NCBI GenBank assembly: GCA_021778635.1
Contig: JAJYCD010000001.1
Location: forward strand, 1-64,000
Length of the DNA stretch: 64,000 nucleotides
Origin: Actinomycetes bacterium
GTDB lineage: Bacteria; Actinomycetota; Actinomycetes; Actinomycetales; Cellulomonadaceae
Direction of reading: 5' to 3'
Shown one piece after another: positions 3,270 to 52,501 of this stretch. The translations under genes and the position numbers were made by a program. The notes beneath the pieces were generated by a model that saw nothing but the letters and a program-made list of their open reading frames with translations, was not told where the DNA came from and made no database searches. The first letter of the stretch is position 1. The number at the start of each line of letters is the position of its first letter.

Positions 3270-3674
3270 ATGCGATACATGCTCATGCAGGCCTACGGAG
3301 CCGTCGAGCTCGAGAACTGCCCGCCGATGTCCGAGTGGGCACCGGAGGACGTCCGGGCGCACATCGACTTCCAGCACGCGCTCAACACCGAACTGCTCGC
3401 CAGCGGCGAGCTCGTCGACGCGCAGGGCCTCGCCGGCCCGGACGTCGCGACGTTCGTCGTGTCCGACGGCGTCCACCCGGCGCGGATCATCGACGGTCCG
3501 TACCCGGAGTCCAAGGAGCTGCTGGCCGGTTACCGGTTGGTCGACGTCGAGAGCCTGGACCGCGCGCTGGAGATCGCCGCGCGCTCGTCCGCCGCCCCCG
3601 GGCCGGGAGGTGCGCCGATCCAGCAGCCCATCGAGGTGCGCCAGGTGCTGGCCGCCCCCGACCCCGAGGTGTGA
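3270..3674 (+). CDS. YCII-related (DGPF-domain) protein, partner of ECF sigma factor
   Basis: This 134-residue protein begins MRYMLMQAY and contains the family hallmark DGPYPESKELLAGY at about residues 73-86, which corresponds to the DGPF motif. It is a small ferredoxin-like-fold protein. The ATG at 3270 has an AGGAGAGG ribosome-binding site. Its stop overlaps the GTG of the sigma factor gene by four bases (GTGA), so the two are translationally coupled. DGPF proteins are the recurring neighbours of ECF42-group sigma factors. They are thought to be targets or partners of the sigma factor, but their biochemical role is unknown. Confidence 0.9.
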   Translation: MRYMLMQAYGAVELENCPPMSEWAPEDVRAHIDFQHALNTELLASGELVDAQGLAGPDVATFVVSDGVHPARIIDGPYPESKELLAGYRLVDVESLDRALEIAARSSAAPGPGGAPIQQPIEVRQVLAAPDPEV

Positions 3675-4921
3675 CTCCCGTCGAGAGCCTGCTGCGCGAG
3701 CTCGCGCCGCAGGCCCTCGGCGCGGTCGCCCGGCGGTTCGGCGACTTCACCGGTGCCGAGGACGCTGTGCAGGACGCCCTCGTCGCCGCCGCAGCCGGCT
3801 GGCCGACCGCGCTGCCCGACAGTCCGCTGGCGTGGCTGATCGCGGTGGCGTCGCGCCGGATGGTCGACGAGTACCGCCGCACCGATGCCAGGCGACGCCG
3901 CGAGGAGCTTGCGGCCTCACTCTCGATCCACCCGCAGCAGGCGGCGCCGTCGGCTGACGACTCGCTCGTGATGCTGTTCCTGTGCTGCGACGACGCGCTC
4001 ACGACGACGCTGTCGATCCCGCTCACCCTGCGCGCCGTCGCAGGCCTGACGACGCGCGAGATCGCCGCCGCCTACCTCGTCCCCGAGGCGACCATGGCGC
4101 AGCGCATCAGCCGCGCGAAAGCACGCCTACGGGGTCGCCGCTTCGAGCTCCCCACCGACCCGACCGCTCGGGTCCAGGCGGTGCGCGAGGTGCTGTACCT
4201 GCTCTTCAACGAGGGCTACACCTCCTCGAGCGGGCCAGACCTGTCACGCGTCGACCTCTCGGGCGAGGCGATCCGACTGACCCGGATGCTGCACGGCCGG
4301 GTCGCCGACGACCCGGAGGTCGCGGGACTGCTCGCGCTCATGCTCCTGACCGACGCCCGTCGGCCGGCCCGCACGTCGGTCGACGGAGCCCTCGTACCGC
4401 TGGCCCAGCAGGACCGCTCGCAGTGGGACCGCGGGCTCATCGACGAGGGCATGCGACTGCTGAACGGTGCACTCGCGGCCCGCCGCGTCGGCGAGTACCA
4501 GCTGCTCGCGTCGGTCGCCGCGCTGCACGACGAGGCGGCGTCGCACACCTCGACCCGCTGGGCGGAGATCGCGAAGACGTACACGCGTCTCGAGTCGTTG
4601 ACCGGAAACCCGATGGTGCGGCTCAACCGGGCCGTCGCGGTCGCGATGGTCGACGGACCTGCGGCCGGCCTCGCGCTCCTCGACGGTCTCGACGTGCACG
4701 ACTCCCACCGTCTGCACGCGGTCCGGGCCCACCTGCTCGAGGAGTCCGGCGACCTCGCCGGGGCGGCGCAGTCCTACACCGCGGCCGCGGTCCGCACCGG
4801 GAACGCCCGCGAGCGCGAGTACCTCGTCGAGCAGGCGGCGCGCGTCGGCGCGACGACGTCGGGGCGACGGCCGACGCCCGGGGTCACACCGACGCGAGGG
4901 CCTGCTCGACCTCGCGGGTGA
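3671..4921 (+). CDS. ECF42-type RNA polymerase sigma factor with C-terminal TPR-like extension
   Basis: This 416-residue sigma factor has region 2 near residues 15-80 (GAEDAVQDALVAA, then LAWLIAVASRRMVDEYRR), region 4 near 115-165 (TTREIAAAYLVPEATMAQRISRAK), and a long helical C-terminal extension of about 240 residues. That extension (LYLLFNEGYTSS onward, ending in repeated helices with LNRAVAVAMVDGPAAGLALL) and the adjacent DGPF gene identify the ECF42 group. In that group the extension replaces an anti-sigma factor in controlling activity. The GTG start at 3671 overlaps the upstream stop. The last 38 bases overlap the convergent thioredoxin gene, so the low-complexity C-terminus is constrained by an opposite-strand gene. 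Confidence 0.92.
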   Translation: MTPVESLLRELAPQALGAVARRFGDFTGAEDAVQDALVAAAAGWPTALPDSPLAWLIAVASRRMVDEYRRTDARRRREELAASLSIHPQQAAPSADDSLVMLFLCCDDALTTTLSIPLTLRAVAGLTTREIAAAYLVPEATMAQRISRAKARLRGRRFELPTDPTARVQAVREVLYLLFNEGYTSSSGPDLSRVDLSGEAIRLTRMLHGRVADDPEVAGLLALMLLTDARRPARTSVDGALVPLAQQDRSQWDRGLIDEGMRLLNGALAARRVGEYQLLASVAALHDEAASHTSTRWAEIAKTYTRLESLTGNPMVRLNRAVAVAMVDGPAAGLALLDGLDVHDSHRLHAVRAHLLEESGDLAGAAQSYTAAAVRTGNAREREYLVEQAARVGATTSGRRPTPGVTPTRGPARPRG

Positions 4922-5312
4922 GCACCGGCTCGGGCTGCGCGCCCACGATCCGCCGCACGACTGCGCCGTCACGGAGGAGGACCAGGGTCGGGATGCTGCT
5001 GGCGTCGAACCGCGCGGCCGTCGCCGGGTTGTGGTCGACGTCCACCTTCACGACCTTCACCCGACCGGCGAACCGCGCCGCGAGCTTCTCCAGCACGGGC
5101 GCGACCATCCGGCAGGGCGCGCACCAGGGTGCCCACAGGTCGAGGAGCACGAGCTGGGGCGTGTCGAGGGCGGCGGAGAGATCGGCGTCGGCCGCGTCGG
5201 CGATCCACGGAAGGGTCGTCTTGCACGAGGCGCATCGCGGGTGACCCGCGGCGGCTGCGGGGACCCGGTTCTTCGTCCCGCAGGACGGGCACGCGACGAC
5301 TCGTGAGGCCAT
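4884..5312 (-). CDS. trxC: Thioredoxin with N-terminal zinc ribbon (Trx2/TrxC-like)
   Basis: This 142-residue protein has an N-terminal zinc-ribbon-like segment with two CxxC pairs (ACPSCGTK and RCASCKT). The thioredoxin fold follows, with the active site WAPWCAPCRM near residue 72 and the cis-proline loop SSIPTLVLL. This is the architecture of thioredoxin 2, a cytosolic disulfide reductase linked to oxidative-stress responses. The start is set at ATG 5312, directly before the first zinc-ribbon strand. The gene follows yciO on the same strand after about 90 bases. Its 3' end overlaps the convergent sigma-factor gene by 38 bases. Confidence 0.92.
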   Translation of the reverse strand: MASRVVACPSCGTKNRVPAAAAGHPRCASCKTTLPWIADAADADLSAALDTPQLVLLDLWAPWCAPCRMVAPVLEKLAARFAGRVKVVKVDVDHNPATAARFDASSIPTLVLLRDGAVVRRIVGAQPEPVLTREVEQALASV

Positions 5313-5399
5313 GAGCCGATCATCGCACCGGGACGTCGCACGCACCCGCGGGACTCCCGGTCGGCGCCCGCACGGGACGCGTGCGGGAGCGGGACGCCC

Positions 5400-6020
5400 T
5401 CACTCGAAGCGCGACGGGTCCCCGGCGCCGACCCGGACGACCTCCGGCGCACCCTCCGACCAGTCGACGACGGTGGTCGGCTCGGTGCCGCAGTCGCCCG
5501 CGTCGATCACCGCGTCGACCAGGTGGTCCAGCTCCTCCTTGACCAACCAGCCCTCGGTCAGCGGCTCCTCGGCGCCGGGCAGCAGCAGCGTGCTCGACAG
5601 CAACGGTTCACCGAGCTCGCGCAGCAGCGCCCGGACCAGGGGATGATCCGGGATCCGCACGCCGATCGTCTTCTTCTTCGGGTGCGCGAGACGTCGTGGG
5701 ACCTCCTTGGTCGCCGGGAGGATGAACGTGTACGGACCCGGCGTCGCGGCCTTGATCGCGCGGAACGGCGCGTTGTCGAGGTGCACCAGCTGACCGAGCT
5801 GCGCGAAGTCCGCGCAGACGATCGTGAAGTGGTGGCGGTCGTCGAGGTGCCGGATCGTCCGGATGCGATCGGCACCGGTGTGGCTGCTCATCAGGCAGCC
5901 GAGCGCGTAGCAGGAGTCCGTCGGGTACGCGATGAGCCCGCCGTCGCGCAGGATCGCGACCACCTGCGCGATCGATCGCGGCTGCGGGTCCACCGGGTGC
6001 ACGTCGAAGAACCTGGCCAT
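5400..6020 (-). CDS. yciO: YciO-type Sua5/YrdC-domain protein
   Basis: This 206-residue protein is one Sua5/YciO/YrdC domain, beginning RFFDVHPVDPQPR and carrying PTDSCYALGC near residue 35 and KKKTIGVRIPDHP near 114. It has the same length as Escherichia coli YciO and matches its opening and its GVRIP and TTVVDW signatures better than those of TsaC. The family binds nucleotides and double-stranded RNA. TsaC/Sua5 members make threonylcarbamoyl-AMP for tRNA t6A, whereas YciO itself is a poor substitute, so the reaction here is uncertain. It is upstream of the thioredoxin gene on the same strand. Confidence 0.88.
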   Translation of the reverse strand: MARFFDVHPVDPQPRSIAQVVAILRDGGLIAYPTDSCYALGCLMSSHTGADRIRTIRHLDDRHHFTIVCADFAQLGQLVHLDNAPFRAIKAATPGPYTFILPATKEVPRRLAHPKKKTIGVRIPDHPLVRALLRELGEPLLSSTLLLPGAEEPLTEGWLVKEELDHLVDAVIDAGDCGTEPTTVVDWSEGAPEVVRVGAGDPSRFE

Positions 6021-48994: not shown

Positions 48995-49145
48995 GGTTCT
49001 CCGGGGGCAGCAGGCGGGTGTCGTCAGTAATAACTGTACGCACCACGTATCTGTTCCGCCGAACCGTCCACGATCGCGACGGCGCGCTCGAGCGAGACGC
49101 CGCAGGGTCGCGGCGCGGGGCCGCCAGGCTCGGGACGCGCGAGGG

Positions 49146-50162
49146 TCAGGGGGCGAGCGAGGCGTCGCTGGAGAAGATCAGCCCGAGCGTGATCTTGCCC
49201 TGGCGCAGCGCGTCCTTGGTCAGGTTGCCGCCGGCGTCCAGCGACGTGAACTGGGTGATGTCCAGCCCGTAGGTCGACTTCAGCCCGACCTCGCAGAAGG
49301 TCCGGGTCGGGCACTCGGGCGGGCCGCCCAGGATGAACCCCCCGCACGCCGAGGCGAGCTGGGACAACGTCGTGACCTTGTACTTGGTGGCGAACGCGGT
49401 CGTGACCGCGAACGCGTTCTGGTCCTGGGCCGCCGCCGGGGCCCCGAACGCGAGCCCCACCCCCTTGCCCAGGTCGGTCAGCTTCGCCACCGTCGCCGTC
49501 AGGTCCGAGGTCGCCACCGGGGCCGCGTTGGCGCCGTTCTTCTTGGTGTTCAAGAACTCCGTCAGCGTGCTCACGTACTCCGGGACCACCGTGATCGCCC
49601 CGGACTCCAGGTCCGTCAGGTACAGCTCCCGGTTGCCGACGTCCTGGGTGGCGGCGTCGTAGCCCGCACTGGTCAGCACGTCGGCGTACAGGTTCGCCAA
49701 GGTCGCACCCTCGGAGAAGTTCGGCGCCCCCACGACGACCTTCTTGCCGGCGCCGACCTTGTCCGACGCCGCCAGGCCCTTCGCCTTCATGAACGCGGCC
49801 GCCGCCTGCACCGAGGTCTGGCGGTCCACGTCCACCGACTTGTTCAACCCCACGAGGGCCGGGGTGTCCAGCGCCGAGGACACCGAGTCCAGCAGCGTCG
49901 TGAGCTCAGGGTCCGCCGCGGCGGCCGCGGCGTTGACCGCCGGGATGACGTTGTCGGGGTTCTGCAGATGCTTGTCGTCGGTCAACGCCACCAGCGTGCT
50001 CCCCGCAACGGGTGCACACGCGGGCAACCCCGACGCAGCGGACGACGACCCACCCGCGGTGCTCACCCCCGACGACCCCGGCGCACCGCACCCGGACACC
50101 AGGAACACCACCCCGGCCACGACGGCACCTGCCGACATCACCGTCACTCGACGTGCACCCAT
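49146..50162 (-). CDS. OpuAC-like (glycine betaine/choline type) binding lipoprotein, apparently circularly permuted
   Basis: This 338-residue lipoprotein has lipobox LVSGC with Cys25 and a Ser/Gly linker to residue 48. Residues 58-130 ([17 protein letters not shown] through [12 protein letters not shown] to KGL) correspond to the segment that normally ends OpuAC/OsmF-type binding domains. Residues 140-338 then read from the usual domain start ([35 protein letters not shown]) to [12 protein letters not shown], where the tail would normally follow. So the order is tail first, body second. ATG 50162 has AGGAG upstream. No permease or ATPase gene is adjacent. The ligand is inferred only from family. 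Confidence 0.8.
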
Positions 50163-50250
50163 CAGCCGTCTCCTGTCCGCCGCAACGTGGGCACAATTCG
50201 AACCTGACGAACGACGCAGCGCAACCCCTGACGGGGCCCGGACGTGGGCG

Positions 50251-51739: not shown

Positions 51740-52501
51740 ATGACCGAGATCGTCGAGAACCCGTTCGTCATCACGCCGGGTACCGTCCAGCAGGGTCACA
51801 AGCGCGTCCGCGCGTTCAGCGCGGGTGAGCTCGTCGTCGACTCCGGCACGCCGTTGCAGGTGTGGGAGCACCCGTACTTCCCGGAGAACTTCTTCGCCGC
51901 GGAGGATCTCGAGGTGGAGCTGCGACCGGCGGGCCGAGGTCCGCGCTCGAAGGTCCTCGGCGTCAGTGACGTCTTCGATGTCGTGATCGGGGATCGGGTG
52001 CTGCCCCGCGCGGCGAGACGGCACCCGGAGGCCGAGGTCGTCGCCCTGCGGGACGCCTATGCGCTGACCTGGTCGGCGTTCGACACCTGGATGGAGGAGG
52101 ACGAGATCGTCTTCACCCACCCCCGAAGCCCCTACGTGCGCATCGACGCCCTCGCCAGCAGCCGGCACGTCATCGCCACGCTCGGCGGCGTCGTCGTGGC
52201 GGACTCGCACCGGCCCGTGGTGCTGTTCGAGACGGGTCTCGTTCCACGCTTCTACCTCCCGCAGGTCGATGTCCGGATGGACCTGCTGACCCCCGTGGCG
52301 ACGGTCAGCCACTGCCCGTACAAGGGAACGGCAACCTACTGGGACCTGGCCGTCGACGGGACGACGGTCAGCGACGCCGCGTGGTCCTACCGCACGCCCT
52401 TGCCCGAGTCGACCAAGATCGCCGGCCTGGTCGCGTTCTGGCCGGAGAAGAGCGCCGAGCTGCACGTCACCGTCGACGGCCAGGAGATCGGCATCGCGTA
52501 G
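51740..52501 (+). CDS. Tandem DUF427-domain protein
   Basis: This 253-residue protein consists of two DUF427 units. The N-terminal unit covers about residues 20-110 (VRAFSAGELVVDSGTPLQVWEHPYFPENFF) and is degenerate. The C-terminal unit covers about 145-250 and has the complete signature VSHCPYKGTATYWDL and AAWSYRTPLPESTKIAGLVAFW. The double-domain form is common in actinobacteria and lacks a known role. It is divergent from the ECF sigma factor with 235 bases between them, where a sigma-dependent promoter could lie. Confidence 0.9.
   Translation: MTEIVENPFVITPGTVQQGHKRVRAFSAGELVVDSGTPLQVWEHPYFPENFFAAEDLEVELRPAGRGPRSKVLGVSDVFDVVIGDRVLPRAARRHPEAEVVALRDAYALTWSAFDTWMEEDEIVFTHPRSPYVRIDALASSRHVIATLGGVVVADSHRPVVLFETGLVPRFYLPQVDVRMDLLTPVATVSHCPYKGTATYWDLAVDGTTVSDAAWSYRTPLPESTKIAGLVAFWPEKSAELHVTVDGQEIGIA

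Follow-up and report, generated by a model that had tools for sequence, protein, structure and literature searches.

The binding proteins closest to the one described here are Archaeoglobus ProX, Escherichia coli OsmF (YehZ) and EgtUC, which are type II proteins of cluster F-III with their domain in the normal order. In EgtUC, lobe D1 is formed by residues 233-331 and 445-506 and lobe D2 by residues 341-432, with the hinge strands between them (PMC9732360). Rearranged versions of binding proteins have been described before. The CPSARST study of 2008 noted that permuted forms exist among the glycine betaine-binding proteins (PMC2395249), and Tp0684 (TpMglB-2) of Treponema pallidum, which is lipid-anchored and belongs to an ABC importer, is a circularly permuted binding protein that still binds its ligand and closes on it (PMC4990184). 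Besides treponemes, Gram-positive bacteria, including many gut commensals, have proteins of the TpMglB-2 type, and a link of the permutation to tethering was suggested by the authors of that study (PMC4990184).

Here we analysed a stretch of 64,000 nucleotides from a cellulomonad actinomycete (hereafter the window), which encodes a substrate-binding lipoprotein, P0001, with its domain segments in swapped order. Our reading, to which we assign a probability of roughly 85%, is that P0001 is the circularly permuted extracytoplasmic binding protein of an OpuB/OsmU-like importer of the betaine/choline type; the estimate refers to the joint explanation, with the anchored lobe, the disulfide and the steps of origin outlined below.

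Segment order and fold of P0001

The gene for P0001 (338 amino acids plus stop) is located at positions 49146 to 50162 on the reverse strand, as are all parts of it given here. A signal peptide with the lipobox VSGCG and the lipidated Cys25 (residues 1-25, positions 50088-50162) starts the protein; Cys25 is invariant in the alignment and the lipobox is found family-wide. Alignments of 27 and 42 rows also contained invariant columns for the pocket and the cysteines. Then follows segment B (residues 54-131, 49770-50003), which corresponds to the ancestral C-terminal tail of the domain (profile positions 187-256), a linker that connects the old C-terminus to the old N-terminus (residues 132-138, 49749-49769) and segment A (residues 139-336, 49155-49748), which corresponds to the ancestral domain start (profile positions 1-183). 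According to the alignment with EgtUC, segment B contains the end of lobe D2, the second hinge strand and the remaining part of lobe D1, and segment A contains the first part of lobe D1, the first hinge strand and lobe D2.

The swapped order was recovered with several types of comparisons. A search with PF04069 matched residues 140-336 to profile positions 1-183 with a score above the family cut-off, and a genome-level profile search placed OpuAC positions 187-256 at 49785-49997 on the reverse strand, upstream of the former and in the same frame, likewise above the cut-off. These two were the only OpuAC matches in the whole genome from which the window is taken, and both are inside the P0001 gene. 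Among relatives in the PDB, positions 9-196 of the EgtUC chain aligned to residues 142-336 of P0001 and positions 201-275 to residues 57-131, and a family profile revealed the same segment swap relative to ProX of A. fulgidus.

To locate the cut, we rotated the mature chain in steps of 10 residues and scored the 29 resulting orders against a profile built from normal-order relatives only. The best rotation started at residue 139 and gave 330.0 bits in one stretch covering profile positions 1-272; with the same profile, the native order gave two stretches of 256.9 and 66.7 bits. The rotated chain also matched positions 1-256 of the 257 in PF04069 as a single stretch, and the score increased from 126.2 bits in the native order to 137.7 bits after rotation (curated cut-off 21.2 bits). 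The native chain yielded no contiguous in-order match to PF04069, nor did OpuAC of Bacillus subtilis. Scores for the OsmF equivalog NF049931 (NCBIfam) were 60.4 bits in the native order and 62.2 bits after rotation, below its cut-off of 400 bits. Neither a duplicated segment nor a second tail was found downstream of P0001, and each part is present once. The rotation, Pfam and PDB results thus show that the permutation is real and that the cut is well placed. This bears out the original prediction, which took residues 58-130 for the OpuAC tail and the arrangement for a permutation, not a duplication. Its description of the ancestral order as that of OpuAC-type proteins was apt as regards the homology of the tail, but B. 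subtilis OpuAC, which gave the domain its name, is itself permuted, at another place. Because a profile of normal-order proteins gives two separate matches, members of this actinobacterial subfamily are easily misread as truncated or fused.

A monomer model inferred with AlphaFold2 from 42 aligned sequences had a mean pLDDT of 89.6 and a pTM of 0.82, with block means of 93-99 from residue 51 onwards. Chains of the ProX, OsmF, OpuBC and EgtUC type aligned to residues ~138-338 of the model (Z 12-14, rmsd ~2.2, ~190 residues), a region to which these matches are confined since it is the part that is in order. OpuAC of B. subtilis aligned in order to residues 46-271 (Z 16.6), because it is itself a permutant. 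Matches to many ProX, OsmF and OpuBC chains place the protein in the type II (cluster F) fold; as regards the cluster B fold of TpMglB-2-like proteins, the top structural matches were all to type II proteins. We also considered that the tail and the core are not packed within one chain but exchanged between the subunits of a segment-swapped dimer. Only seven residues (132-138) link the old ends, and the structural evidence comes from modelling of a monomer. However, the model is confident across both segments (pTM 0.82) and both old ends are located in D1 in the normal-order relatives, so that a short linker can suffice, and we regard a swapped dimer as very unlikely.

Distribution and origin of the permuted order

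Most genomes of the family to which the window belongs encode a full-length permuted homologue (51-93% identity to P0001), and such homologues are also present in further families of its order and class. The named loci are from Cellulomonas, Sanguibacter, Actinotalea, Oerskovia, Promicromonospora, Isoptericola, Georgenia, Demequina, Micromonospora and a Sporichthyaceae bacterium. A classifier of domain order based on segments A and B assigned 127 hits in the fetched loci to the order B-A and 30 to the order A-B, numbers that are not frequencies, as the loci were sampled by similarity to the query. The permuted hits represent 114 distinct proteins, all of them actinobacterial and with a common cut. 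A search of actinobacterial genomes for the same order, as proposed in the original prediction, thereby returned more than 100 loci.

The number of loci also bears on whether the gene is an artefact, in which the tail of a truncated upstream gene has become fused to another, normal gene without its own end. The window genome assembly is fragmented (160 contigs), but the same open frame, lipobox, order and cut were found in more than 100 loci from many genera, single-contig genomes included, and the genes are under purifying selection; we consider the probability of such an artefact to be negligible. An assembly error is refuted by complete genomes, such as that of Luteimicrobium xylanilyticum (NZ_CP045529).

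For the phylogenetic analysis, the permuted sequences were re-set to the normal order. A single branch separated all 114 permuted rows in a tree of 144 rows. In a tree with two distant normal-order rows as the outgroup, a clade of 35 permuted rows had support values of 100/98, and the clade of all 36 had 72/77; the permuted clade was nested among normal-order relatives. Since the outgroup and the ProX, OsmF and EgtUC proteins have the normal order, the B-A order is most simply explained as derived, and as having arisen once. One permuted member, L129 (G456:C42), is highly divergent, with ~43% identity and a long branch, and is possibly the deepest permuted lineage. The support of only 72/77 for its inclusion in the clade would be compatible with more than one permutation event at the same place. 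Every member has the same cut and the same two extra cysteines, however, and the other 35 rows are a clade at 100/98, which makes a repeated origin unlikely.

The rearrangement would have occurred once, probably by tandem duplication and trimming. The gene would have been doubled within an operon that was already there, after which the first core and the last tail were lost. In keeping with this, the linker that follows segment B resembles the glycine-rich linker that precedes segment A in normal-order proteins. No intermediates with repeated segments, as a trace of the tandem duplication, were identified among the fetched loci.

Operon context and relocation of the window gene

Hits to OpuB-like permeases were present upstream and on the same strand in 77 of the 80 named permuted loci, and an ATPase gene was located nearby in 76 of them. 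The typical layout is an ATPase gene divergent from the genes for permease 1, permease 2 and the binding protein. Almost all normal-order sisters with enough flanking sequence have the permease-permease-binding protein arrangement too, and the permutation therefore took place in a type of operon that already existed. The best family for the ATPase was TIGR01186 (proV; betaine/proline/choline), with a score under the cut-off, and the permeases were nearest to choline and ProW families, also under the curated cut-offs. For loci with at least 3 kb of sequence available, a same-strand upstream permease gene was missing only in L033, which is the contig from genome G002, and in L052, where permease genes are located nearby on the opposite strand. 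That the protein is an orphan binding protein by nature is ruled out, as its orthologues reside in transporter operons.

In the window, the P0001 gene has no permease or ATPase gene of the OpuAC type next to it. Directly upstream is a DUF427 gene (PF04248; 50251-50877, reverse strand); the translation of a second gene at 51740-52501 on the forward strand appeared similar to it by eye. Scans for promoters and terminators produced nothing useful in this GC-rich sequence. The lack of adjacent transporter genes, on which the original prediction had remarked, is thus confirmed for the window genome and for its nearest relative, G002, but elsewhere the transporter genes adjoin.

The operon is intact in G001, a genome of the same genus, with the ATPase gene at 665557-666540, the permease genes from 666623 and the binding protein gene at 668068-669072. 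G002, with a binding protein 93% identical to that of the window, retains the ATPase and the two permeases, but permease 2 is directly followed by an NrdI-like gene and the binding protein gene is absent from that place. Instead, the gene is located between an MFS gene and a DUF427 gene, as in the window; the MFS gene of G001 is located elsewhere with no binding protein gene beside it. Using blastn against the intact G001 operon, the similarity at the DNA level extended over 49144-50210 in the window, such that the relocated segment, with approximate limits, consists of the gene on the reverse strand and ~48 bp upstream of it. We conclude that, both in G002 and in the window genome, the binding protein gene alone has left the operon; its solitary position is due to this local move and is no feature of the permuted system itself. 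The dN/dS ratios among the copies in the window, G002 and G001 were 0.13-0.15, and the moved copies are hence under purifying selection. The G002 contig (JAKBFW010000089.1) is titled as a Proteobacteria MAG, a label that seems wrong as its genes closely resemble those of the window's actinobacterial genus; part of a neighbouring glucosidase-like gene in it (3413-5647) reads as X due to runs of N.

We did not find the operon region in the assembly from which the window is taken; this assembly is 91.6% complete, which leaves a gap and a loss indistinguishable. In the window lineage, the moved binding protein would presumably serve the transporter in trans. The alternative is that it has become an orphan sensor or scavenger that serves no importer, for which one may cite the absence of adjoining transporter genes, the absence of any close to those of the operon elsewhere in the assembly, and the fact that the gene stays conserved. 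Against this, G002 keeps the permeases and the ATPase with no binding protein gene at the operon, which suits service in trans, and we find the orphan role rather unlikely.

Anchored lobe, cysteines and comparison with known proteins

In the alignment, residue 336 of P0001 corresponds to EgtUC residue 425 and residue 57 to EgtUC residue 430. This places the cut at EgtUC residues 426-429, within D2 and just before hinge residues 433-444. As the cut precedes the second hinge strand, both hinge strands are whole in the permuted protein, judging from this alignment. The chain would start in D2, cross the second hinge strand to D1, run through the old tail and the old start of D1, cross the first hinge strand and end in D2. 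With the ends in D2 in the permuted proteins and in D1 in the normal-order ones, the lipid anchor would be on the other lobe, D2 in place of D1, while the flytrap mechanism and the pocket would be unchanged. The suggestion that the tethered lobe changes is supported by the EgtUC lobe limits and by the permutation-specific cysteines, with the correction that the cut leaves both hinge strands whole.

A cysteine 5 or 6 residues before segment B (Cys49 in P0001, codon at 50016-50018) was present at the new N-terminus of all 127 permuted hits, and none of the 30 normal-order relatives has one at the equivalent join. Likewise, Cys273 (49344-49346), located in D2 at EgtUC position 365, was found in all 114 permuted proteins and in 0 of 30 normal-order ones. 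The deepest member, L129, has both. Cys284 and Cys290 (motif CPTRTFC, 49293-49313), which enclose the pocket residue R287, are present in 114/114 permuted and 28/30 normal-order proteins, and this pair is consequently ancestral. The pattern suggests a disulfide between Cys49 and Cys273, which would pin the new N-terminus to D2. Four normal-order proteins from one actinobacterial family (L132, L134, L135 and L138) have a cysteine just before segment A and, within that segment, a third one at D1 position 166 (EgtUC 262), a possible counterpart of Cys49 and Cys273. The N-terminal segment is thus likely to be pinned to its own lobe in both groups, to D1 in these four proteins and to D2 in the permuted ones. 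Tentatively, the move of the anchor may have been fixed in the permuted clade together with a Cys49-Cys273 disulfide, through which the tether would be coupled to D2 and the docking of the closed protein on the permease altered.

With regard to the ligand pocket, Y196, T199, E283, R287 and F330 correspond in the alignment to F293, T296, E375, R379 and Y419 of EgtUC, and D247, N249 and D70 are found in place of N339, Y341 and Y443. Y196, D247, N249 and D70 show little or no variation among the permuted proteins and are mostly common to the normal-order sisters, which indicates that the pocket predates the permutation; F330 is variable. The cage of four aromatic residues plus Asn/Asp that is typical of subcluster F-III is incomplete, with two of the four aromatics kept (Y196 and F330) and N249 and D70 at the other positions, and the full cage is likewise missing in the normal-order sisters. 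A betaine-like cation is a plausible ligand.

We found no description of this actinobacterial permutation in the open-access literature, where absence is no proof. Permuted binding proteins are already known, but the cut point of this clade was not found described; the new points are the cysteine pair confined to the permuted members and the tethered lobe, which is predicted to differ. Natural permutants for which close normal-order sisters (~50% identity) exist in operons of the same kind lend themselves to experiments, and the clade allows one to ask directly whether the anchored lobe matters for closure and docking. The rotation also offers a ready natural scaffold for binding-protein biosensors; biosensors based on this binding-protein fold are already in use.

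P0001 shares the PF04069 domain, the bilobed fold, part of the pocket (Y196, E283, R287 and F330) and the same kind of transporter genes with ProX, OsmF and EgtUC. It differs from them in segment order, in the predicted anchor on D2 and in the extra pair Cys49/Cys273, as well as in the replacement of EgtUC Y341 and Y443 by N249 and D70. OpuAC of B. subtilis (2B4L), for which we used a sequence with a mature part identical to the PDB entry, is a lipoprotein and a natural permutant of the same Pfam domain, in which profile positions 114-256 come first (residues 30-171) and the N-terminus is in D2 by homology. However, it is cut at profile position 114 (about residue 272 of our model) as compared to 184-187 in P0001, and it belongs to another subfamily with no sign of a shared origin. 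TpMglB-2 is also a circularly permuted and lipid-anchored binding protein, but with the type I (cluster B) fold of sugar-binding proteins and another cut point.
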